Both the position numbers and the translations under genes were made by a program. The notes beneath the pieces are model-generated. The model saw nothing but the letters and a program-made list of their open reading frames with translations. It ran no database searches and was not told the DNA's origin. A DNA stretch of 40,547 nucleotides from Candidatus Nomurabacteria bacterium (GTDB taxonomy: Bacteria; Patescibacteriota; Minisyncoccia; Phycocordibacterales; UBA9973), in assembly GCA_943354905.1 (NCBI GenBank), contig CALRDL010000006.1:1-40547 (forward strand), in the 5' to 3' direction. This document shows, piece by piece, positions 233 through 21,143 of this stretch; position 1 is the first letter of the stretch; every line of letters starts with the position of its first letter.

Positions 233-261
233 TTGACATTTGAAACGAATGGGTATATACT
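233..261 (+). promoter_or_regulatory. Consensus sigma70-type promoter of the hsd operon, leaderless
   Basis: TTGACA at 233-238 and TATACT at 256-261 are separated by exactly 17 nt. Six nt separate the -10 box from the ATG at 268, so the predicted +1 is at or next to the A of the start codon. No Shine-Dalgarno sequence is possible in such a short leader. Confidence 0.8.
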
Positions 262-267
262 ATCCTT

Positions 268-1965
268 ATGACTAACAATTATTCAATTAAACAAGCAGCG
301 AAACTATTAGGGGTTAATGAAGATACTTTACGCAACTGGGAAGAAAAGGGTCTTATTAAGCCATTACGTGTTGGAATAAGGCAAGATAGAAAATTCACTC
401 AAGATATAATAAATGAAATAATTGAGAAGGGTTTAGCTCATCCAATTTTAAGTTTAGATAAAGACGCTCCAGAGAAAAAAGAAAAAATGAAATTACCAGA
501 ACTTCAAGCATTTTTATGGAAAAGTGCAGACATACTTCGTGGTAAGGTTGACAGTGGAGATTATAAAACATACATTTTCGGACTTCTTTTTTTAAAAAGA
601 TTAAGTGATACATGGGATGAAGAGTATGAAGATCTTTTAGCAAAATTTCACGATGAAGAACTTGCCAATGCCGACTACAATCATAAATTTCAAATGCCAA
701 AAGATTGTCGCTGGGCAGAAATTCAAAAAGAAGCCATCAATATTGGAGCAAAACTCAATGATGTTTTTGATAAATTAACCACAGCAAACAATCCAAAACT
801 TGATAAGATTTTTAATAATTTAAATTTTGGAGACAAAGATCGTTTTCCAAATGAAACACTTCAACGACTTATAAATCATTTTTCAAGATATAATTTTGGA
901 AACACTTATATTAATTCCGATATTCTTGGTGACGCGTATGAATATCTTATAAAACAATTCGCTACTGATGCAGGCAAAAAAGGAGCAGAGTACTACACTC
1001 CACGCGAAATTGAAAGAGTAATTATAAAAATAATAAAACCTGACGCCAAAAGTCATGTGACAGATATAACATGTGGCTCGGGTGGGTTTTTATTGGAAGC
1101 TTACCATTACGTTCGGGAAAAATTTGGAGACAAAGAAGCTCGCAAAATGTATTTATCAGGACAAGAAATAAATATAGGCACTTATGCAATTGCAAAAATA
1201 AACATGTTCTTGCACGGGCTTGAAAGCACCGACATCCGCCGAGGAGATACACTTGCAGATCCTCAATTCTTAGACAAGGCAGGGAAAATTCAAACTTTTT
1301 CTCATGTGGTTGCAAATTTCCCTTATTCAATCAAAGAGTGGGAATGGGAAACTTTTACACACGACAAACATGCTCGCACAGATGGATACGAACTTCCCCC
1401 AAAGAAAAATGCTGATTACGCCTTTATTCTTCATATCATCAAATCTTTAAACGAAAATGGCAAAGCCGGCATCGTTGTACCTCATGGCGTGCTTTTCAAA
1501 TCCGACACTTCTGGTAGAATTCGCGAACAAGTTTTAAAAAATGACTTGATAGAAGCTATCATCGCAATGCCCGCAAAACTCTTTTCTGGTGTTGGTATTC
1601 CTGTTGCTCTTGTAATACTAAATAAAAATAAGCCAGAAAATCATAAAAACAAAATAATGTTTATTGATGCAGAGCGATATTATCAAGAAGGCAAAAATCA
1701 AAATTCGTTACGTAATCAGGATATAGAAAAAATAGTCTCTGCTTTTGATAATTGGAAAGATATAAATAAATACGCTCGAGTGATTAGTGCTGAAGAAATA
1801 AAAGAAAATGATTATAACTTAAATGTTCGTAGATATATTGACTCGTCGGAGATAGAGGAAAAAATTGATGTTTCTATTGTGTGGAAAGAGTTGAAACAAA
1901 TTGAAAAGGAGAAAGAAGAAATTAACAAAAAAGTCGAGGGATACTTAAAAGAATTAAAATATTAA
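268..1965 (+). CDS. hsdM: Type I restriction-modification DNA methyltransferase (HsdM) with N-terminal MerR-type HTH
   Basis: This is the modification subunit of a type I R-M complex, an N6-adenine methyltransferase that works with HsdS. Residues 5-53 form a MerR-like winged HTH (YSIKQAAKLLGVNEDTLRNW, then a basic wing). Residues 75-230 match the HsdM N-terminal helical domain. YTPRE (243-247) precedes SAM motif I, DITCGSGG (266-273). Motif IV reads NFPY (350-353) instead of the usual NPPF/NPPY. The C-terminus (about 530-565) is a charged coiled coil. At 565 aa it is somewhat longer than a standard HsdM because of the HTH. dinD follows 4 nt downstream. Family assignment is secure. A regulatory role for the HTH is inference. 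Confidence 0.93.
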   Translation: MTNNYSIKQAAKLLGVNEDTLRNWEEKGLIKPLRVGIRQDRKFTQDIINEIIEKGLAHPILSLDKDAPEKKEKMKLPELQAFLWKSADILRGKVDSGDYKTYIFGLLFLKRLSDTWDEEYEDLLAKFHDEELANADYNHKFQMPKDCRWAEIQKEAINIGAKLNDVFDKLTTANNPKLDKIFNNLNFGDKDRFPNETLQRLINHFSRYNFGNTYINSDILGDAYEYLIKQFATDAGKKGAEYYTPREIERVIIKIIKPDAKSHVTDITCGSGGFLLEAYHYVREKFGDKEARKMYLSGQEINIGTYAIAKINMFLHGLESTDIRRGDTLADPQFLDKAGKIQTFSHVVANFPYSIKEWEWETFTHDKHARTDGYELPPKKNADYAFILHIIKSLNENGKAGIVVPHGVLFKSDTSGRIREQVLKNDLIEAIIAMPAKLFSGVGIPVALVILNKNKPENHKNKIMFIDAERYYQEGKNQNSLRNQDIEKIVSAFDNWKDINKYARVISAEEIKENDYNLNVRRYIDSSEIEEKIDVSIVWKELKQIEKEKEEINKKVEGYLKELKY

Positions 1966-1969
1966 ATTT

Positions 1970-2800
1970 ATGGATAAAGCACTTATACAAATACAAGAAG
2001 ATTTAGAATCAATAAAAAGAACATCGAATGATAAGGATTCAATGGAGTTTTGGCACGCTCGTGATTTGATGCTGGTGCTTGGATATACAACATGGCGACA
2101 GTTTGCAGAAGCTATTGAGAGAGCAAAAGAAGCTTGTAAAATAAGCAATCAGCCTGTGGATAACCACTTTTTGCCGGCGCCAGCAAAAAGTTCCGGTGGT
2201 CGCCCTAAAGAGGACTTTTTCCTTACTCGTTATGCATGTTATCTCATTGCTCAAAATGGCGATCCCAGAAAACCGCAAATTGCTCTCGCTCAGACATACT
2301 TTGCGACACAAACTCGTAAACAAGAATTGCTTGAACATAGAGAGTACGAAAATAAAAGGCTAGAAGCACGAGCAAAATTAAAAGATACTGAAAAAGGTAT
2401 TGAATCTACAATATATCAGCGAGGAATTAAACTTTCTGTGGAGTTCGCAACATTTAAAAATAAACACATAGAAGCATTGTATGGCGGTGTCACAGCAAGC
2501 CAGTTAAAAAGAGTTAGAAAAATTCCCACAGGTAGATCCTTGGCGGATTTTGACAGTCACGTTGAATTAAAAGCAAAAGATTTTGTGCTCGCGATGACAG
2601 ATCATAATATTAAAGAGAAAAATCTTCAAGGCCATTATCAAATGACCGAAGAAGTGATAAAAAACAGTAAAGCTACAAGGCAGACGCTTTTGTCTCGTGG
2701 AATAAAACCAGAAAATCTTAAAGCAGAGGAAGATTTGAAAAAGATTGAAAGTCGAAGAAAAAAAGAATTAAAAGCATCTGCGGTTAAAAAATTAAAATAA
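1970..2800 (+). CDS. dinD: DinD-like DNA damage-inducible protein D
   Basis: The 276-aa protein has the layout and length of E. coli DinD (274 aa). The N-terminal Bro-N-like part contains FWHARDLMLVLGYTTWRQF (about 26-44) and a GRPKEDFFLTRYACYLIAQNG block (about 76-96). A helical basic C-terminal half ends in a Lys-rich tail. In E. coli DinD is SOS-induced and has been linked to inhibition of RecA filaments; the substrate here is unknown. dinD genes are recurrent passengers of type I R-M operons, and this one sits between hsdM and a DUF2130 gene with 2-4 nt spacing, so it is almost certainly cotranscribed. Confidence 0.85.
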   Translation: MDKALIQIQEDLESIKRTSNDKDSMEFWHARDLMLVLGYTTWRQFAEAIERAKEACKISNQPVDNHFLPAPAKSSGGRPKEDFFLTRYACYLIAQNGDPRKPQIALAQTYFATQTRKQELLEHREYENKRLEARAKLKDTEKGIESTIYQRGIKLSVEFATFKNKHIEALYGGVTASQLKRVRKIPTGRSLADFDSHVELKAKDFVLAMTDHNIKEKNLQGHYQMTEEVIKNSKATRQTLLSRGIKPENLKAEEDLKKIESRRKKELKASAVKKLK

Positions 2801-2802
2801 AA

Positions 2803-3984
2803 ATGAAAAACGATACAAAAAATATAAACTGTCCGAATTGTGGTGAATTGATTTCAATCGACGATGCCTTGACGAGCCAAATGGAAGCAAAGTATAAAAA
2901 AGAATTTGAAGAAAAAGAAAATATATTAAGAAGTTCAATTGAAAAAGAAAATGGAGAAAAACTTCTTGAACAAGAAAAACTTCTTGAAAAACGTGTTAAA
3001 CAAAAAATAGAAAAAGAATCAGAGTCCGAAAAGAAATATATGGCGGAACAATTAACTGAAACAGAAGCGAAACTTAAAGAAGCTCGAAAAGATGCACTTG
3101 AAGCTATAAAAGAAAAACAAAAAATTAAAGACGAAAAAGATGCTTTTGCGTTGGAGAAAGAAAAACAATTAAATGAAGAAAGAAAAAAGATAGAAGAAGA
3201 AGCATCTAAAAAAGCGACAGAGGCAAAACAGGCTGAAATTGATCAATATAAAAAACAAGTTTCTGATGCTCAGAAGGCTAACGATGAATTAAATAGAAAA
3301 CTAGCCCAAGGCTCACAACAGACACAGGGGGAAGTGCAAGAAATAATTTTAGAAGAACTTTTAAAATCTGAATTTATATATGATGACATAGCTCCTGTTC
3401 CCAAAGGGGTTAACGGTGCTGATGTGATACAAACTGTTAAAACAAAAAATAGTATTGAATGCGGTAAGATAATTTGGGAATCAAAGAAAACTAAAACTTG
3501 GACAGAAGGTTGGATACAGAAGCTCAAAGATGATCAAAGATTAGTAAAAGCTGACCTTGCAGTGATTGTTACTTCTGCTATGCCTCAAGGAACCAGCGGC
3601 ATCATACAAAAAGATGGTGTTTGGATTTGTGATATCAAACTTGCAATATCAATCGCTACGCTACTAAGACAATCTCTTGAAGCTGTTTCCAGAGAAAAAA
3701 CAATGTCTGTAGGTAAAAACGAAAAAATAGAGATTTTGTATTCCTATATAAATAGTACTGAATTTAGACAAAGAATAGAAACTATTGTTGAAACTTTTTC
3801 TTCAATGAAATTATCTTTAGATAAAGAGAAAGTCTATTTTGAAAAATCTTGGGCGGAACAAGAAAAACAAATTCAGAAAGTTATTAAAAATACTGTCGGT
3901 ATTTATGGTGACATGAGCGGCATTGTTCAATTACAAAAGATTGAAGCGTTAGAATTACCAGAACCATCTAAAAAGAAGAATTAA
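2803..3984 (+). CDS. DUF2130 protein: coiled coil plus PD-(D/E)XK-like domain
   Basis: The N-terminus carries a half zinc ribbon (CPNCG, residues 10-14). Residues about 28-170 form a long, highly charged coiled coil. The C-terminal domain has the DUF2130 pattern SEFIYDDIAPVPKGVNGADV, then IIWESKKTKTW, in which the E-x-K pair fits a restriction-endonuclease-like fold. The protein has 393 aa. No reaction is established for the family, but it is frequently encoded next to type I R-M genes. It lies 2 nt after dinD. A TATAAT-like hexamer at 3986-3991 after the gene might start a shorter downstream transcript. Family call is good; nuclease activity is inference. Confidence 0.8.
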   Translation: MKNDTKNINCPNCGELISIDDALTSQMEAKYKKEFEEKENILRSSIEKENGEKLLEQEKLLEKRVKQKIEKESESEKKYMAEQLTETEAKLKEARKDALEAIKEKQKIKDEKDAFALEKEKQLNEERKKIEEEASKKATEAKQAEIDQYKKQVSDAQKANDELNRKLAQGSQQTQGEVQEIILEELLKSEFIYDDIAPVPKGVNGADVIQTVKTKNSIECGKIIWESKKTKTWTEGWIQKLKDDQRLVKADLAVIVTSAMPQGTSGIIQKDGVWICDIKLAISIATLLRQSLEAVSREKTMSVGKNEKIEILYSYINSTEFRQRIETIVETFSSMKLSLDKEKVYFEKSWAEQEKQIQKVIKNTVGIYGDMSGIVQLQKIEALELPEPSKKKN

Positions 3985-4006
3985 TTATAATTAATAATAA
4001 AAAAAT

Positions 4007-4321
4007 ATGAAAGAAAAATTTCTACACGCAATTGATAATAAATTAAAGATAAGCATTACTTTTAATGCAAAGAAAAAAGGTCAAATAACAAGAGAATGCA
4101 TACCTTTTGACTTTGGGGCTTCTCAAAAGATAGATGCTATTAATAAAATAGAAAAATATCATATTTGGGATTTGAATAGTCCTGATGGTCCCCATAATCT
4201 TGCCTTAAATCCTGATGAGGTTATTGAGATAGAAGTTTTAAATGAAAATTTCGACCCGGCTGATTATGTGACTTGGCAACCAAAATGGATATATAAAAGA
4301 GATTGGGGAAATAAGTCATAA
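4007..4321 (+). CDS. Small conserved-looking protein of the R-M operon, function unknown
   Basis: A 104-aa acidic protein, probably a single beta-rich domain: a run of short strands (KISITFNAKKKG, RECIPFDFG), then KYHIWDLNSPDGPHNLALNP and a Trp-rich end (WQPKWIYKRDW). The pattern loosely recalls a WYL/Sm-like fold, as in small regulators of defence loci, but I do not recognise a named family. The start is the first ATG after a 22-nt gap. The stop codon overlaps the hsdS start by one base (TAATG), implying translational coupling. A role in controlling or assembling the R-M complex is only context inference. Confidence 0.6.
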   Translation: MKEKFLHAIDNKLKISITFNAKKKGQITRECIPFDFGASQKIDAINKIEKYHIWDLNSPDGPHNLALNPDEVIEIEVLNENFDPADYVTWQPKWIYKRDWGNKS

Positions 4322-4884
4322 TGTATATGAAAACTAATTTATTACAAAAAAGTATTTCAAATGGCTGGCAAGTAAAATCATTTAATGATTGTTTTGATGT
4401 TGCATCTAAATTACAAGGCTTAAAAAAAATTGATTATAGAGAACAAGGAAAATATCCAATTATTGATCAAGCACAGAATTTTATTACTGGCTACACAGAT
4501 AGTAATGATTTAATTCAAGAAAAAATACCAGCAATAGTTTTTGGTGACCACACAAGAATACTAAAATACATTGATTTTCCTTATGTACTGGGAAACGATG
4601 GAACTAAAATAATTTGGGCAAAAAAAGAAAATGACCCAAAGTTTTTATTTTATTCTTTACTAAGATTGGAAATTCCAAATACGGGATACAATCGCCATTT
4701 TAAATATTTAGAACAATCAAGATTTTCTCTTCCATTGAAACCTGAGCAAGTAAAAATCTCTGAAATTCTTTCATCCGTTGATGAGAAAATCTCGGTTAAT
4801 AAAAAATTAAAAGAGAAACTTACACAATTAAAAAAGGGATTAATGTCGGATCTTTTGAGTGGAAAAGTTAGAACAAATAAATGA
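4321..4884 (+). CDS. hsdS: Half-size type I specificity subunit (HsdS, one target-recognition domain)
   Basis: HsdS chooses the DNA site of the complex. The 187 aa contain one target-recognition domain: GWQVKSFNDCFDV (about 14-26), YPIIDQAQNFITGYT (about 44-58), the central VFGDHTRILKYIDFP, and YNRHFKYLEQSRFSLPL near its end. One conserved helical spacer follows (EILSSVDEKISVNKKLKEKL) and ends LLSGKVR. Typical HsdS has two such units in about 400 aa, so this one would have to dimerise and read a palindromic site, or it is a truncated derivative. ATG 4321 overlaps the upstream stop; M3 at 4327 is an alternative start. Its own stop overlaps the next ATG (ATGA). Confidence 0.85.
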   Translation: MYMKTNLLQKSISNGWQVKSFNDCFDVASKLQGLKKIDYREQGKYPIIDQAQNFITGYTDSNDLIQEKIPAIVFGDHTRILKYIDFPYVLGNDGTKIIWAKKENDPKFLFYSLLRLEIPNTGYNRHFKYLEQSRFSLPLKPEQVKISEILSSVDEKISVNKKLKEKLTQLKKGLMSDLLSGKVRTNK

Positions 4885-5537
4885 ATACAATAACACAATT
4901 ACATACAACTTTTTCACCAACCCCAACAGATACTCTTCAAAATTATCTTTGGAAGAAAATAGACAATACGTGGAATTCAGAATCTTACGAATATGCTTTG
5001 AGAAAAAATATAGCCTATTATTTTCAATATTTACAGTACTTGGATTATGAAATTAATAGAGATTTAAGTAGACATGTAGTAATAGTTAAAATGCTTTATA
5101 AAACTTTTATTATAGTTGCCTTTAGTATTATAGAAGCATTGATTTATCATGACTTGAAAAAGAAAAATTTAATTAAGAAGGAAGAGTATGAAGAAATAGG
5201 AAAATATTGTAATAATATACAAAATTCAGACTTACGAATCAATACAATTGTCTTTAAAAAGAAGAATGACGGAGTATTGCTTGACGAATTTTTGAAAACG
5301 AAGGATTTATTTAGAAGGGCAAAGGATAGTGATCTTTTTGGAAACGATAGTGGCTTGTACTCTAAATTTAATGGTATGAGAAAATTGAGGGATAAAGTAC
5401 ATATTCATATTTCTGATCTTCAAAAAGAAACAGATTATAATATGTTTAATAAAGAAGTGTATAAAAGAAACAAAGAAACATTTTTATATATTTATTCAGT
5501 TTATTTTGGTTTAGAAGATTTAACATTAGCAATATGA
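4881..5537 (+). CDS. HEPN-like protein inserted between hsdS and hsdR (candidate RNase effector)
   Basis: A 218-aa, mostly helical protein that I do not recognise by name. A hydrophobic helix IIVAFSIIEALIYHDL lies at about 77-92. Residues 166-176 read MRKLRDKVHIH, giving R170-D-x4-H176 (and R167-x6-H174). This matches the Rx4-6H signature, with a polar residue after Arg, that marks HEPN RNases. HEPN proteins often act as toxins or abortive-infection effectors. ATGA overlaps at both ends (4881-4884 with hsdS, 5534-5537 with hsdR) show that it is built into the operon and translationally coupled. The position recalls PrrC, an anticodon nuclease kept next to a type Ic hsd locus, but this protein lacks the ABC ATPase part. 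Activity is inference. Confidence 0.65.
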   Translation: MNTITQLHTTFSPTPTDTLQNYLWKKIDNTWNSESYEYALRKNIAYYFQYLQYLDYEINRDLSRHVVIVKMLYKTFIIVAFSIIEALIYHDLKKKNLIKKEEYEEIGKYCNNIQNSDLRINTIVFKKKNDGVLLDEFLKTKDLFRRAKDSDLFGNDSGLYSKFNGMRKLRDKVHIHISDLQKETDYNMFNKEVYKRNKETFLYIYSVYFGLEDLTLAI

Positions 5538-8452
5538 AATTCAACGAACAATATACAATTGAAAATCACATTATAGAGTTTATTCAAAAAGAGCTTGGTT
5601 TTGAATATATCAAGCCAGAGATTTTTGAGAAGTTTCACTATTATGAAAATGAATATATTGCAGAACCACTTTTGCAGGATGCTATTCGCAAAATTAATGG
5701 AAAAGTAGAAAGCGGAGAGATGAGAAATATTATTCAAATAATTCGTAGAGTGGAAACAAATAAAGAATTTTTAAATTTATTGCGAAAAGGTGTTGATCTG
5801 ATAGATTCTGATACTCGCAAAACAAAAAATTATAAAATTATTGATTTTGATAATATAGACAATAACCATTTTGTCGTTACTAATCAATTTTATTTTGCGG
5901 GGAATGCTGAAAACATCCGACCCGACATTATTATTTTCTTAAATGGGATTCCAATAGTTGATATTGAAGCCAAAAGTCCCACAGCTTCCGAGCAAGTTGA
6001 TTACGCTATTGCTATAGGACAGATAAAACGTTATGAAAGAAACGCAAAAAGCCTTTTTATCTCAAATTGCTTTAACATCGCCACAGATGGCATCAAAACG
6101 GTTTATGGGGCTACTTTTGCACCAGAATTGGGTTTTCTAGAGTGGAAAGACAAAGAGCTTGAAGAACAATATGGGGGCAAATTGGAGAGCACTCTTGTTT
6201 CTCTCTTAGCTCCACGTAATTTATTAGATATAATTCAAAATTTTATAGTTTTTGAAGATACAGACGATGGTTCAATTAAAAAAGTAGCGAGATATCAACA
6301 ATTTAGGGCGACAAATAAAATTTTTGAACGTGTTAAAGAAGGAAAACAAAAGAGAGGTCTTGTTTGGCACACTCAAGGGTCAGGAAAAAGTTTGACTATG
6401 TTTTTCACAGCTTGGAAATTACGTTACGAAAAACTTTTACAAAATCCTAAGGTTTTTGTGTTAGTGGATAGAGTAGATTTAGATGATCAAATTTTTGAAA
6501 CTTTTTTAAACTGCGGTGGGGAAAATGTTGAAAGAGTGACGTCTAGAGAGCAATTATTAAAAGTTATTGGATCAGACGAAGCTGGAATTTTTATTTCAAC
6601 AGTTCACAAGTTTGATGAAAATATTAAAGATATAAAAAATGAAGCCTCAAATATTATTGTTTTAATTGACGAAGCACACCGTACGCAATACGGAAGCATG
6701 GGCATATTTTTAAGACATGCTTTACCAAATGCCAGTTTTATTGGATTTACTGGAACTCCAATATCTAAAACGCATGAAGAATTTGGGCTTTTAACTTCCG
6801 GTAATCCTGAAAGATATCTTGATTATTATTCTATAAAACAAGCAATAGAAGACAATGCTACTGTTCCTGTCGTTTATGAAGCAAGATTGTCAAAATTCTC
6901 AATTGATGAAAAAGAAATTGATGCTCAATTTGATATGGCAACAAGTGATTTATCAGTAGAACAAAAAGATTTGCTTTCTAAAAAATATAGCAAAAAAGAA
7001 GCTTTCACTAAACTAGAAAAAAGAATGGAAGCTATTGCCAGAGATATTTATGAACATTTTAATACCTATGTTGCTCCTGCGGGATTTAAGGCACAAGTTG
7101 TTTGCTATGACAGAGAAACCACGGCTAGATATAAAGAAATTTTTGATCAAATAATGCCAAAGGAATATTCTGAAGTTATTTATTCACCGGGCGAAGTCAA
7201 TACTGATTCTCCTGAACTCAGTAAATATAATAAAACTAAAAGTGAGATAAAAGAAGCCGTAAAGAAATTTAAGGATAAAAATAATCCACTTAAATTTTTA
7301 CTTGTGTGCGATATGCTTTTGACTGGATTTGACGCCCCTGTTGAACAAGCTATGTATTTAGATAAACCCTTGCAACATCATAATCTTTTGCAGGCAATTG
7401 CACGCACGAACAGAACCTATCCGCAAAAAACAAACGGTTTGATAATTGACTATTATGGTATTACTAGAAATTTAAAAGACGCCTTAGATTTTGATGAAAG
7501 CGAAATAGCAGATTCTATGATAGATATGGATTCTATTAAAAAAGATTTTGAAATCAGTTTTGAAAAAGTAAATAAAATCTTTCATAGAATAAATACCGAA
7601 GATCCTAGAATGGAAAACTTGCGAAAATGCTTCGATATTTTTCGAGATAATTCTGAAAAACAAGAAGATTTTAAAGAAGGATGGAATAAGTTAAAAATAT
7701 TTTACGAAATAATTTCCCCAGACCCTTATCTTTTACCATTTACAAGACAAGTGGAGTGGTTTGCTTGTTTTTATATAGCCTTTAAAAAAGAATTTGAAGC
7801 AGACACTCGAGATGTTCACGCACTTCTTTTTGAATATGGTTCAAAACTAAAATCAATAATTCAATCCAAGGTAGACTACGAAGGAATTATGAAAAACTAT
7901 ACACCTATCAGGCTAGATCAGCTTGCAGAACTTGAAAAATACAAAGACCCAGATGAAGACAAAGCTAGAATGCTTGAGCGAGCTTTAAATTATGAAATTT
8001 CAATAAATTTTGACACAAGCCCAATATTCAAGAAATTTTCTGAAAGATTAACACTTATTAAAACAGAGTTTGAAAAGCGTCAGGTAGCTTTACAAGAAAC
8101 ACTAAAAAAATTACATATCCTAGCGGATGATATTAAAAAAGTTGATGTTGAAGCAAAGGACTTAGGTCTTAATATGGAACAATTTGCACTTTATTCTTTA
8201 TCAAGGGAAGAGGGCTATGTGAAAGAAGTTGAAAAAGATGCACTTAAACAATTTTCAATTGATTTATCTAAATATTTAGATGATTTACTGGATGAAGGTT
8301 GGCAAGATACAATTAGAAGAGAAGACTTACTAAAAGATATAAAAAGACAAGTCCAACAAATGCTCCTACAAGAATATAAAGAAAGTTTGATAGTTAATAA
8401 TTTTCAGAAATATCTTAATAGATTAATTGATATAATTTTGAAAAAGTTTTAA
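5534..8452 (+). CDS. hsdR: Type I restriction endonuclease and translocase subunit (HsdR)
   Basis: HsdR uses ATP to pull DNA through the bound complex and cuts it at a distance. The N-terminal PD-(D/E)XK nuclease shows D131 and E145-A-K147 (RPDIIIF, IVDIEAKSP). The SF2 motor shows Walker A HTQGSGKS (279-286), the LIDEAHRTQYG box (377-387), motif III FTGTPI (405-410) and, in the second RecA lobe, CDMLLTGFDAP and an Arg-finger segment IARTNRTYP. The C-terminal helical part (about 700-972) would contact HsdM/HsdS. The 972-aa length is normal and no catalytic residue appears lost, so restriction should be active. It overlaps the HEPN-like gene by 4 nt. Confidence 0.96.
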   Translation: MKFNEQYTIENHIIEFIQKELGFEYIKPEIFEKFHYYENEYIAEPLLQDAIRKINGKVESGEMRNIIQIIRRVETNKEFLNLLRKGVDLIDSDTRKTKNYKIIDFDNIDNNHFVVTNQFYFAGNAENIRPDIIIFLNGIPIVDIEAKSPTASEQVDYAIAIGQIKRYERNAKSLFISNCFNIATDGIKTVYGATFAPELGFLEWKDKELEEQYGGKLESTLVSLLAPRNLLDIIQNFIVFEDTDDGSIKKVARYQQFRATNKIFERVKEGKQKRGLVWHTQGSGKSLTMFFTAWKLRYEKLLQNPKVFVLVDRVDLDDQIFETFLNCGGENVERVTSREQLLKVIGSDEAGIFISTVHKFDENIKDIKNEASNIIVLIDEAHRTQYGSMGIFLRHALPNASFIGFTGTPISKTHEEFGLLTSGNPERYLDYYSIKQAIEDNATVPVVYEARLSKFSIDEKEIDAQFDMATSDLSVEQKDLLSKKYSKKEAFTKLEKRMEAIARDIYEHFNTYVAPAGFKAQVVCYDRETTARYKEIFDQIMPKEYSEVIYSPGEVNTDSPELSKYNKTKSEIKEAVKKFKDKNNPLKFLLVCDMLLTGFDAPVEQAMYLDKPLQHHNLLQAIARTNRTYPQKTNGLIIDYYGITRNLKDALDFDESEIADSMIDMDSIKKDFEISFEKVNKIFHRINTEDPRMENLRKCFDIFRDNSEKQEDFKEGWNKLKIFYEIISPDPYLLPFTRQVEWFACFYIAFKKEFEADTRDVHALLFEYGSKLKSIIQSKVDYEGIMKNYTPIRLDQLAELEKYKDPDEDKARMLERALNYEISINFDTSPIFKKFSERLTLIKTEFEKRQVALQETLKKLHILADDIKKVDVEAKDLGLNMEQFALYSLSREEGYVKEVEKDALKQFSIDLSKYLDDLLDEGWQDTIRREDLLKDIKRQVQQMLLQEYKESLIVNNFQKYLNRLIDIILKKF

Positions 8453-8454
8453 TT

Positions 8455-9015
8455 ATGAAAAGAAAACTTTTAATAAAAAATCAAAATATTACTGTTGACA
8501 TCAAAAAAAGCAAGAGAGCCAAGCGTATGAGAATTGCCGTATATTGTGATGGTTCAGTTGTGGCTGTGCATCCAGACAACATAAGTTTTTCTAAGATTTT
8601 ATTAATTATTGAAAATAAGATTAGTTGGATTAAGGAAAAAATTGATTTTTTTAATTCAAGACCAAATATCCCTATTTTTAAAGGAGGGAAAAGAGAATAT
8701 ATTAAAAATAAGGATAATGCTTTTGAATTGGTTAAAAATAAAGTTGAGTATTTTAATCAATTTTACAAATTTCACTACAATAAAATAAATATTAAAAATC
8801 AAAAGACACGCTGGGGTAGCTGTTCAAGCAAAAAGAATTTAAATTTTAATTATAAAATAATTTTCCTTTCTGAAGAATTACAAAATTATTTAATTGTTCA
8901 TGAATTATGTCATTTAAAAGAATTTAATCATTCCAAAAAATTTTGGGATTTGGTTAGGTTAAAAATTACAAACCTTAACCAAATCAGTAAAATTTTAAGA
9001 AAGCATATAAGATAA
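8455..9015 (+). CDS. YgjP-type zinc metallopeptidase (DUF45/M48-like)
   Basis: The 186-aa protein has the two hallmarks of the YgjP family: TRWGSCSS (118-125) and HELCHLKEFNH (149-159). In these H149, E150, H153 and probably H159 build the zinc site. The N-terminal half is a basic beta domain with KRAKRMRIAVY. It starts 2 nt after hsdR, a placement seen repeatedly for this family in type I R-M operons; its role there is unknown (processing or turnover of R-M subunits is one idea). It is the last gene of the operon. A GC-rich hairpin at 9019-9047 follows directly, without a T-run. Confidence 0.88.
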   Translation: MKRKLLIKNQNITVDIKKSKRAKRMRIAVYCDGSVVAVHPDNISFSKILLIIENKISWIKEKIDFFNSRPNIPIFKGGKREYIKNKDNAFELVKNKVEYFNQFYKFHYNKINIKNQKTRWGSCSSKKNLNFNYKIIFLSEELQNYLIVHELCHLKEFNHSKKFWDLVRLKITNLNQISKILRKHIR

Positions 9016-9393
9016 TAAGCCCGCATTCCCCCAAACCCCCTGCGGGCAGAATTCGAAATCTCACCGAAAAGATACAGTTAAGGAAAATGGAAATCCTAAT
9101 CCCCAAAATATTTGTTTCCATTTTCCGAGTCCATTTGAATTAAAACATTAGTCGAGCGTAGTAGAAAAATTAGAAGAAAAATAGTCGTAGAGCGTAAGAT
9201 TAGCTTTCTTGCTTTTCAAAAAAAGTTCGCGTAAAGGACATTAATACATCACAAAACTTTGTGACTACAAATAATTTTTCGTCGCCACTCAAAATTTTCG
9301 CAGTCCGCCCCTCGTGGTTTTACAAGCTTGCAAAACATCACTGCGGTCGTCACCAAACATAAAAAGACTGGAGCAGTCCAGTTTTTTTATGTT
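9016..9393. other. Gene-free stretch with several inverted repeats
   Basis: No convincing ORF was found on either strand. Structures seen: GCCCGCA/TGCGGGC (9019-9025 and 9041-9047); a perfect 12-bp repeat GGAAAATGGAAA/TTTCCATTTTCC (9082-9093 and 9115-9126); CACAAA/TTTGTG near 9254-9267; a near-palindrome GTTTTACAAGCTTGCAAAAC at about 9317-9336; and the 24-bp repeat described separately. This may be a degraded end of the R-M island or a structured RNA. Nothing decides between these. Confidence 0.5.
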
Positions 9394-9400
9394 TGGTGAC
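9349..9400 (-). terminator. 24-bp inverted repeat at the 3' end of tRNA-Glu(UUC), probable terminator
   Basis: The arms 9349-9372 and 9377-9400 pair over 24 positions with one G-T pair and a 4-nt loop. Read on the minus strand, the core is ACTGGA-CTGC-TCCAGT followed by CTTTTT, the form of an intrinsic terminator just after tRNA-Glu. The arm is unusually long because it takes in the last bases of the tRNA (GTCACCA), so the tRNA 3' end has an inverted copy downstream. Confidence 0.65.
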
Positions 9401-9468
9401 CCCACAGAGAATCGAACTCTGATTATCGGATTGAAAACCCGGTGTCCTAACCGTTAGACGATGGGGCC
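9394..9468 (-). tRNA. tRNA-Glu (anticodon UUC)
   Basis: On the minus strand the 75-nt sequence folds as a cloverleaf. The acceptor stem is GGCCCCA/TGGGGTC with one G-U pair, the D arm is GTC...GAC, the T arm is CAGAG-TTCGATT-CTCTG, and CCA is encoded. The anticodon loop TTTTCAA gives anticodon TTC (9433-9435 on the plus strand reads GAA). The anticodon stem has one mismatch (C27-A43) and one G-U pair. The D-loop and variable loop match bacterial tRNA-Glu. Together with tRNA-Glu(CUC) at 24431 it gives two Glu isoacceptors in this window. Confidence 0.93.
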
Positions 9469-19415: not shown

Positions 19416-21143
19416 ATGAAGAACAATTTTACATTGAGGTCAAAGATTATTATTTTATGTATTTTTGTTTTCTCTTTGATATTACTTGCAAAACTTTTTT
19501 TGGTTCAAGTTATCAATAAAAATGTCTATAAAGAATCTGCTGACAGGCAGTATGCTACCAATTCCAGTAATATTTTCGAACGTGGGACCATTTTTTTTCA
19601 AAATAGAGACAAAGATGGTGATGGTGGACAACTGATATCGGGAGCGACTCAAACTTCCGGATTTAAAATAGCTATAAACCCTAGCAAGATTATCGACAAA
19701 GAAGAAGTCTATAAAAAGTTAGTAAAAATAATCCCTCTCGATTACACTGATTTCATAACTCGGGCGAATAAAAAATCTGATCCATATGAAGAAGTCGCAA
19801 ATCATATTGGGAAAGATTCTGCCGATGCTATCTCGGCTATAAAGATTCCAGGTGTTAGTATTTTTAAAGAAAAATGGCGTTTTTATCCTGGAGAATCTCT
19901 TGCGTCTCATACTCTCGGATTGGTTGCTTATAAGGATTCGGAACTTGGTGGGCGTTATGGTTTAGAGCGACAGTATAATACCGAATTAGCCCGAAACAAC
20001 AACGAACCCTATGTAAATTTCTTTGCTGAAGTTTTTTCAAATATCAATAAAACTTTTTTTGAAAAAGAAAAAAGAGAGGGAGATGTCGTGACGACTATCG
20101 AACCGCAAGTGGCGAATTTCTTGGAGAAAAAATTAGAAGAAGTGAAAAAAAAGTATCAAGCGGACTCCATCGGAGGGATCATCATGAATCCGATTGATGG
20201 AGCTATCTATGCTATGGCGGTCAAGCCAGATTTTAATCCAAATGATTTTTCTCAAATTAAAAATAGTATGACTTTCTCCAATCCTTTGGTAGAAAATGTT
20301 CTTGAATTCGGCTCGGTGGTCAAACCACTCGTCATGGCGAGCGCCCTTGATTTTGGAGTAGTTAGAGCTGATACCACATACAATGACAAGGGTTCGGTGA
20401 TTATTGAAAAAAAAGAAATATTTAATTTCGATAAAAAAGCAAGAGGTTCGAATATTAGTATGCAAGAAGTCTTAAATCAATCTCTAAACACAGGGATGGT
20501 CTATGTGATGCAAAAACTCGGTCGAGAAAATATGCGGGATTATTTATTATCTTTTGGGATTAAAGACAAGACTGGTATTGATCTACCAAATGAGACCAGT
20601 GGTCTGATATCAAATTTAAATAGTCCGCGAGAAATAGAATATGCCAACGCAGCTTTCGGTCAGGGGATAGCATTGACGCCGATCCAGATGATTCGGGCAC
20701 TTGCCTCACTCGCAAATGGAGGAAATCTGGTCGTTCCACATCTGGTAGAGAAAATAAAATACAGTGATGGAACTTCCACTACAAAAGAATATCCAACTAT
20801 TCCAACTAAAATCAAAAAAGAAACTGGCGAAGAGATAACCCGGATGTTAGTGGAAGTTATGGATAAATCTATCAAAGGAGGTTTAGGGAAATTTGAAAAT
20901 TTTAGTGTAGCAGTGAAGACTGGTACGGCTCAAGTTGCAAATAACACAAATGGCGGGTACTATGAAGATCGACACACCCATTCATTTTTTGGTTATTTTC
21001 CAGCCTATGATCCAAAATTTATTATTTTATTGTATGCTGTAAATCCAAAAGGTAGTCCATATGCTGCGACGACTTGGTCCGATCCATTTTTAGAAATTAC
21101 AAAATTTTTATTAAGTTATTATGAACTACCACCAGACCGATGA
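19416..21143 (+). CDS. ftsI: Peptidoglycan D,D-transpeptidase FtsI (PBP2-type)
   Basis: Crosslinks septal peptidoglycan on the outer face of the membrane. It has a short cytoplasmic start, a membrane helix at about 11-32, and a dimerisation/pedestal domain including ERGTIFF. The transpeptidase domain has S300-V-V-K303 (FGSVVKPL), S356-L-N358 (QSLNTG) and K501-T-G-T (AVKTGTAQ). All catalytic motifs are intact; 575 aa is normal. An Asp/Gly-rich insert (NRDKDGDGGQL, 63-73) after the RGTIFF motif is slightly unusual and could bind calcium (guess). The stop overlaps murF by 4 nt. Confidence 0.96.
   Translation: MKNNFTLRSKIIILCIFVFSLILLAKLFLVQVINKNVYKESADRQYATNSSNIFERGTIFFQNRDKDGDGGQLISGATQTSGFKIAINPSKIIDKEEVYKKLVKIIPLDYTDFITRANKKSDPYEEVANHIGKDSADAISAIKIPGVSIFKEKWRFYPGESLASHTLGLVAYKDSELGGRYGLERQYNTELARNNNEPYVNFFAEVFSNINKTFFEKEKREGDVVTTIEPQVANFLEKKLEEVKKKYQADSIGGIIMNPIDGAIYAMAVKPDFNPNDFSQIKNSMTFSNPLVENVLEFGSVVKPLVMASALDFGVVRADTTYNDKGSVIIEKKEIFNFDKKARGSNISMQEVLNQSLNTGMVYVMQKLGRENMRDYLLSFGIKDKTGIDLPNETSGLISNLNSPREIEYANAAFGQGIALTPIQMIRALASLANGGNLVVPHLVEKIKYSDGTSTTKEYPTIPTKIKKETGEEITRMLVEVMDKSIKGGLGKFENFSVAVKTGTAQVANNTNGGYYEDRHTHSFFGYFPAYDPKFIILLYAVNPKGSPYAATTWSDPFLEITKFLLSYYELPPDR

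Follow-up and report, generated by a model that had tools for sequence, protein, structure and literature searches.

The question raised by this locus is what a 218-aa protein, referred to here as P0001, does between hsdS and hsdR of a type I restriction-modification (R-M) operon in a Patescibacteria genome (750 kb in 31 contigs). An earlier note, made from the sequence alone, had proposed a HEPN-like RNase translated together with its neighbours. The window (the whole stretch of 40,547 nucleotides that was analysed) was examined for gene content, and P0001 for conserved residues, predicted fold, relatives and the gene neighbourhoods of these relatives.

Layout of the operon and of the embedded gene

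Eight plus-strand genes are packed in the type I R-M operon (268-9015), with a tRNA-Glu gene nearby. The naming of hsdS and hsdR as the flanking genes agrees with the Pfam/NCBIfam calls, which also identify hsdM. The features are as follows:

233-261, plus strand: promoter-like TTGACA-17-TATACT, candidate promoter for the whole operon (consensus match 11/12)
268-1965, plus strand: hsdM (565 aa) with an N-terminal MerR-like helix-turn-helix at residues 5-49 (Pfam N6_Mtase 1e-102, HsdM_N 4e-25, MerR_1 5e-10; TIGR00497)
1970-2800, plus strand: DinD-like protein with a Bro-N domain (NF008573 4.5e-82; Bro-N 1e-10; PADLOC PDC-S13)
2803-3984, plus strand: DUF2130 protein (Pfam 3e-59)
4007-4321, plus strand: 104-aa ORF without a match in Pfam or NCBIfam
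4321-4884, plus strand: hsdS, half-length (187 aa), with one target recognition domain (Methylase_S 5e-14, whole profile covered once)
4881-5537, plus strand: P0001, 218-aa protein with a predicted HEPN fold and a beta hairpin insert (103-127), probable RNase (homologue alignment, model, fold search)
5379-5402, plus strand: RKLRDKVH, codons 167-174, putative active-site motif R-x-x-R-[N/D]-x-x-H (R170 and H174 in 28/28)
5534-8452, plus strand: hsdR (972 aa; TIGR00348 7e-164; Pfam HSDR_N, SWI2_SNF2)
8455-9015, plus strand: YgjP/SprT-like metallopeptidase, last gene of the operon (Pfam 5e-34)
9394-9468, minus strand: tRNA-Glu(ttc), at the island edge (tRNA call)

The gaps along the operon are +4, +2, +22, -1, -4, -4 and +2. 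The 4-nt overlaps reported for the 218-aa ORF are both present, as ATGA at 4881-4884 with hsdS and at 5534-5537 with hsdR, and may make hsdS, the P0001 gene and hsdR one translational unit. Another -4 overlap occurs elsewhere in the window (at 21140); the overlap alone is thus ordinary compact-genome style. The promoter-like sequence lies 6 nt upstream of the hsdM ATG and is the top match in a 10-kb scan, a sigma-70-like search by consensus matching only in which the count of matches equals the shuffled expectation. The G+C content of hsdS, the P0001 gene and ygjP is 24-28% versus 35.5% for the remaining window, as expected for acquired defence genes. tRNA genes are typical integration sites, and the tRNA-Glu gene borders the low-G+C R-M island.

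Three further features of the operon were observed. The MerR-like helix-turn-helix (Pfam 5e-10) opens the window HsdM (268-430), a helix-turn-helix-like start is also found in a same-genus HsdM (L074:8197-9993), and autoregulation is possible. The half-length HsdS with its single recognition domain implies a specificity subunit that would be homodimeric and would recognize a palindromic bipartite site. Finally, the DinD/Bro-N and DUF2130 genes (1970-3984) lie inside the operon, between hsdM and hsdS.

Conserved motif and predicted fold of P0001

The HEPN proposal had been founded on the segment MRKLRDKVHIH, read as an Rx4-6H signature with R170 and H176 as the pair. P0001 contains three Rx4-6H pairs (60/65, 167/174 and 170/176) and at least one such pair is present in 46% of shuffled P0001 sequences, so that the motif, taken from one sequence, is near chance and is no evidence. 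Conservation was therefore counted in 28 aligned sequences from Patescibacteria, Absconditabacteria, Bacillota, Cyanobacteria and Bacteroidota; L070-L073, which are weak matches only, were excluded. The family is very divergent (15-34% identity to P0001). Four residues are invariant in 28/28 sequences: K74, E85, R170 and H174. The arginine of the proposed pair was thus correctly chosen; position 176, with H in just 7/28, was not, which rules out R170/H176 as the catalytic pair, and the invariant histidine is H174.

The resulting motif, R170-[N/D]-x-x-H174, has a spacer of 3 (R and H at i and i+4), one residue below the canonical Rx4-6H. R167-x6-H174 falls within the canonical range, yet R167 is not invariant (R in 21, K in 6 and I in 1 of the 28 sequences). 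R170 and H174 are regarded as the putative active site because they are invariant and because the R and H of the HEPN toxin SO_3166 are essential, as its mutants show. Residue 171 is N in 27/28 sequences and D solely in P0001. Where HEPN families have a conserved motif, the position after R is polar, in most cases N, D or H, and D at this place is usual in other HEPN families (PMC3710099); D171 could weaken the activity of the window copy, and caution is needed here.

The AlphaFold (AF2) model of P0001 (mean pLDDT 85.8, pTM 0.78) has long helices at 36-59, 66-94, 157-173 and 191-209 and the beta hairpin at 103-127. Helix 157-173 has R170 close to its end, and H174 comes just after the helix. 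Among the 50 PDB matches listed by Foldseek for this model, only HEPN proteins have a TM-score to target above 0.5 (YutE 1ylm, 0.55; HEPN toxin 7ae9, 0.55; sacsin HEPN 3o10, 0.53). The model of a compact homologue, L037 (pLDDT 87.5, pTM 0.87), gave eight chains at 0.51-0.63, all HEPN, from six entries (8xeh, 5yep, which is SO_3166, 7bxo, 2hsb, 8yuf and 8xdj), none of the remaining matches listed exceeding 0.43 except HEPN 6m6w at 0.49. The structure prediction suggested as a check for the HEPN bundle therefore does lead to solved HEPN proteins, with Foldseek E-values that are all >0.1 against the PDB (P0001 and L037), none being significant alone. A BFVD fold search with P0001 gave nothing significant.

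No family in Pfam, NCBIfam or PADLOC covers P0001 or its relatives, and PHROGs, searched with P0001 only, gave none either. P0001 has no match to a HEPN family HMM at cut-off. Weak Pfam matches of single members cover five HEPN-like families, the best for any member being HEPN_Swt1 (0.0076). A match at cut-off is how known HEPN families get assigned, not a trait that defines the superfamily. PDB sequence searches, both single and profile, returned nothing useful, nor was anything learned from aligning the family profile with two single HEPN sequences in hhalign. Since there is no HMM match at cut-off and the Foldseek E-values exceed 0.1, HEPN membership rests on fold and motif. With a HEPN-like fold in the models and the invariant R-[N/D]-x-x-H, the designation as a HEPN-like protein is supported, and P0001 very probably adopts the HEPN fold as modelled.

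Relatives in R-M and other defence loci

Profile and tblastn searches found relatives in 13/380 genomes at the level of the phylum, the window's own genome being one of the 13, and in 8/307 at the level of the order. In Bacillota, Oscillospirales, Cyanobacteria and Flavobacteriaceae, 0.3-1.2% of the genomes sampled contain relatives, showing that the family is rare in these groups; relatives also occur in Absconditabacteria. A phage origin is without support: tblastn of phage records gave no hit, two viral-contig scans gave no relative, and BFVD gave nothing significant.

The tree of the family has two halves of 16 rows each, separated by a moderately supported split (89/71). The first contains P0001 and relatives from several phyla; the second contains solitary proteins in Patescibacteria chromosomes. 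Among the loci inspected, 6/16 in the P0001 half are R-M loci versus 0/16 in the other half (Fisher's test about 0.02, hand calculation). We estimated by reasoning, not by a count, that no more than some 2% of randomly chosen genes would be this close to R-M genes; given this estimate, 6/32 in R-M loci by chance is very unlikely. The R-M-linked members are not one clade (6 changes on the tree), and linkage has therefore been gained or lost several times.

Members of the family recur in defence operons of several types, R-M operons among them. The R-M types are type I and type III (two cases each), type ISP and an Eco57I/GmrSD/PLD-helicase island. P0001 itself lies between hsdS and hsdR of a type I operon; L023 and L026 lie between DUF4391 and type III Mod/Res; L066 adjoins a type ISP enzyme, together with a further HEPN-like protein that carries ERNSVVH; L037 adjoins GmrSD, an Eco57I methylase and a PLD helicase. 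L076, from the same genus as the window, probably belongs to the family as a divergent member; it starts 2 nt downstream of hsdS in another type I operon, and its membership is weak (HMM bias equals the score in size; hhalign probability 69%). In addition, L028 adjoins a complete Gabija pair (GajA 6e-205, GajB 1e-124) and a TIR effector. The R-M linkage of homologues anticipated in the earlier note is thus found at several R-M loci, and beyond type I, but it is not universal: many relatives are solitary, on chromosomes and plasmids, without a common partner or antitoxin gene, and no R-M neighbour was seen for the long-form members in cyanobacteria and Tenacibaculum.

Some of these loci have features of their own. 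The second HEPN-like protein of L066 (8806-9309; 167 aa, canonical-looking ERNSVVH, no Pfam match at 0.001) is encoded between the type ISP R-M gene and the family member, so that two HEPN-like genes are adjacent. In L028 (8038-13480), the family member directly precedes GajA-GajB and follows a CBASS-type TIR effector and a MutM-like ORF. The type III operon of L026 holds, besides the family member, a Pfam HEPN gene (8456-9174), and the small ORF upstream of that gene resembles an MNT antitoxin. The solitary short forms (about 170-210 aa; L031-L044, L067 and L068) keep R-N-x-x-H and are found at ordinary Patescibacteria chromosomal loci, some of them by genes for ribosomal proteins, and have no antitoxin in common that would keep them harmless.

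In three other genomes of the genus, the cargo of the type I operons differs, and includes the probable family member after hsdS in L076. In L074 an AbiJ_NTD4/PDC-S32 protein (AbiJ_NTD4 Pfam score 25 bits, below its cut-off) occupies the hsdS-hsdR slot and a PIN protein the hsdM-hsdS slot, i.e. there is RNase-type cargo at two slots (5140-8193). The cargo is an OLD-type ATPase in L075 and a Schlafen AlbA_2 protein in L077.

Proposed function and control, and comparison with known systems

Our best explanation, to which we give a probability of roughly 0.6, is that P0001 belongs to an uncatalogued family, is a ribonuclease that has the HEPN fold and stands alone, and serves as an embedded defence effector in the type I R-M operon. 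A role as a defence effector is likely, and RNase activity, as predicted from the model and the conserved residues, is probable. P0001 would cut RNA, of the host or of a phage, and so would stop growth or destroy phage RNA once restriction is blocked or overwhelmed, as a second line of defence behind it. Translation as one unit with HsdS and HsdR would tie the amount of P0001 to that of the restriction subunits in a constant ratio. These subunits would be the best candidates for holding P0001 inactive; this is the weakest step, because there are solitary relatives without an R-M partner, which argues that Hsd proteins need not hold it in check. Direct control by the Hsd subunits is accordingly doubtful.

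The best explanation can be refined in two ways. The first, with a chance not far from even, is that P0001 is an independent embedded gene, an active effector that shares only promoter and mobility with the operon and has its own trigger and neutralisation, as for TgvAB and DarTG2 in type I operons. Solitary relatives on chromosomes and plasmids are in line with this, as is the unrelated cargo in equivalent slots of same-genus type I operons (L074, L075 and L077). Published cases point the same way: TgvAB of V. cholerae, embedded in a type I operon, is active without HsdR (PMC11411939), and in EPEC DarTG2 sits between hsdS and hsdR, a site termed a potential recombination hotspot (PMC12255303). 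Nevertheless, the gene is ATGA-coupled on both sides, and R-M systems of types I, III and ISP have recruited one family repeatedly; both points suggest something beyond accidental cargo.

The second refinement, PrrC-like control, is plausible by analogy, albeit unlikely: HsdMSR would bind and mask the nuclease and free it upon encountering anti-restriction proteins or phage DNA. P0001 lacks the ATPase or sensor domain of PrrC and its solitary relatives need no R-M, although the position of its gene and the translational coupling with hsdS and hsdR would suit such control, which has been proposed in general for R-M-linked HEPN proteins (PMC3710099).

That P0001 is a non-catalytic HEPN protein is improbable, be it a subunit with a structural or RNA/nucleotide-binding role or a remnant that is inactive and has D171. 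The R-x3-H spacing is outside the canonical range, D171 is unique to P0001 and some HEPN families are inactive (PMC3710099); against this, R and H are among only four invariant residues despite the low identity of the family to P0001, and a polar residue after R is typical of motif-bearing HEPN families (PMC3710099). A toxin-antitoxin pair of the MntA-HepT kind, suggested by fold matches that include MNT-associated HEPN toxins and by the Pfam HEPN gene and MNT-like ORF of L026, is rejected for the window, as no nucleotidyltransferase is among the annotated operon proteins (Pfam) and none is common to the relatives.

A more speculative proposal, which we consider rather improbable, is that one small HEPN family with a compact R-N-x-x-H would serve mechanistically different R-M systems (types I, III and ISP) as a plug-in back-up RNase, kept inactive by a feature that those enzymes share (the methylase-DNA complex or the SF2 translocase) and freed when restriction fails. 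If the best explanation is true, it adds an uncatalogued HEPN family whose active-site spacing is one residue shorter and suggests that Patescibacteria, with very small genomes, couple restriction with a growth-arrest back-up. The spread of the family over type I, III and ISP operons would make the 13-year-old prediction of second-line HEPN RNases testable with one small protein.

The earlier suggestion of an undescribed system is justified in part. What is new is a HEPN family uncatalogued in the libraries searched, its motif variant and the broad range of its R-M partners; the family is set apart by Pfam, NCBIfam, PADLOC and PHROGs and may coincide with one of those 2013 families (PMC3710099) that have no Pfam model. 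HEPN proteins beside R-M and the hsdS-hsdR insertion slot (PMC12255303) have already been described: R-M-linked HEPN proteins, in at least 16 clades, were proposed in 2013 as second-line RNases (Anantharaman et al. 2013, PMC3710099). P0001 resembles these clades, and PrrC beside EcoprrI (type Ic R-M), as a predicted HEPN nuclease in an R-M operon with a proposed function in a second line of defence. It differs from both in its R-x3-H, its beta hairpin insert and the lack of a Pfam HEPN family at cut-off. PrrC is an ABC-ATPase fused to HEPN, whereas P0001 has 218 aa and no ATPase domain (Pfam). Like PrrC/RloC it is encoded in a type I hsd operon; PrrC/RloC are masked by Hsd proteins, as P0001 might be.

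SO_3166/HepT toxins (5yep, 7bxo and 8xeh) share with the P0001 family the HEPN helix bundle, R followed by N (D in P0001) and the location of the motif at a helix end. Their spacer is 4 instead of 3, and they pair with an MNT antitoxin, for which the P0001 operon has no counterpart. DarTG2 is likewise defence cargo of a type I operon, in the same hsdS-hsdR slot, and TgvAB is cargo inside a type I operon; in both cases the proteins and their chemistry are unrelated to P0001. Among AbiJ-type proteins in R-M operons, the AbiJ_NTD4/PDC-S32 protein of L074 fills the slot of P0001 in a same-genus species, with another N-terminal domain and from another family.
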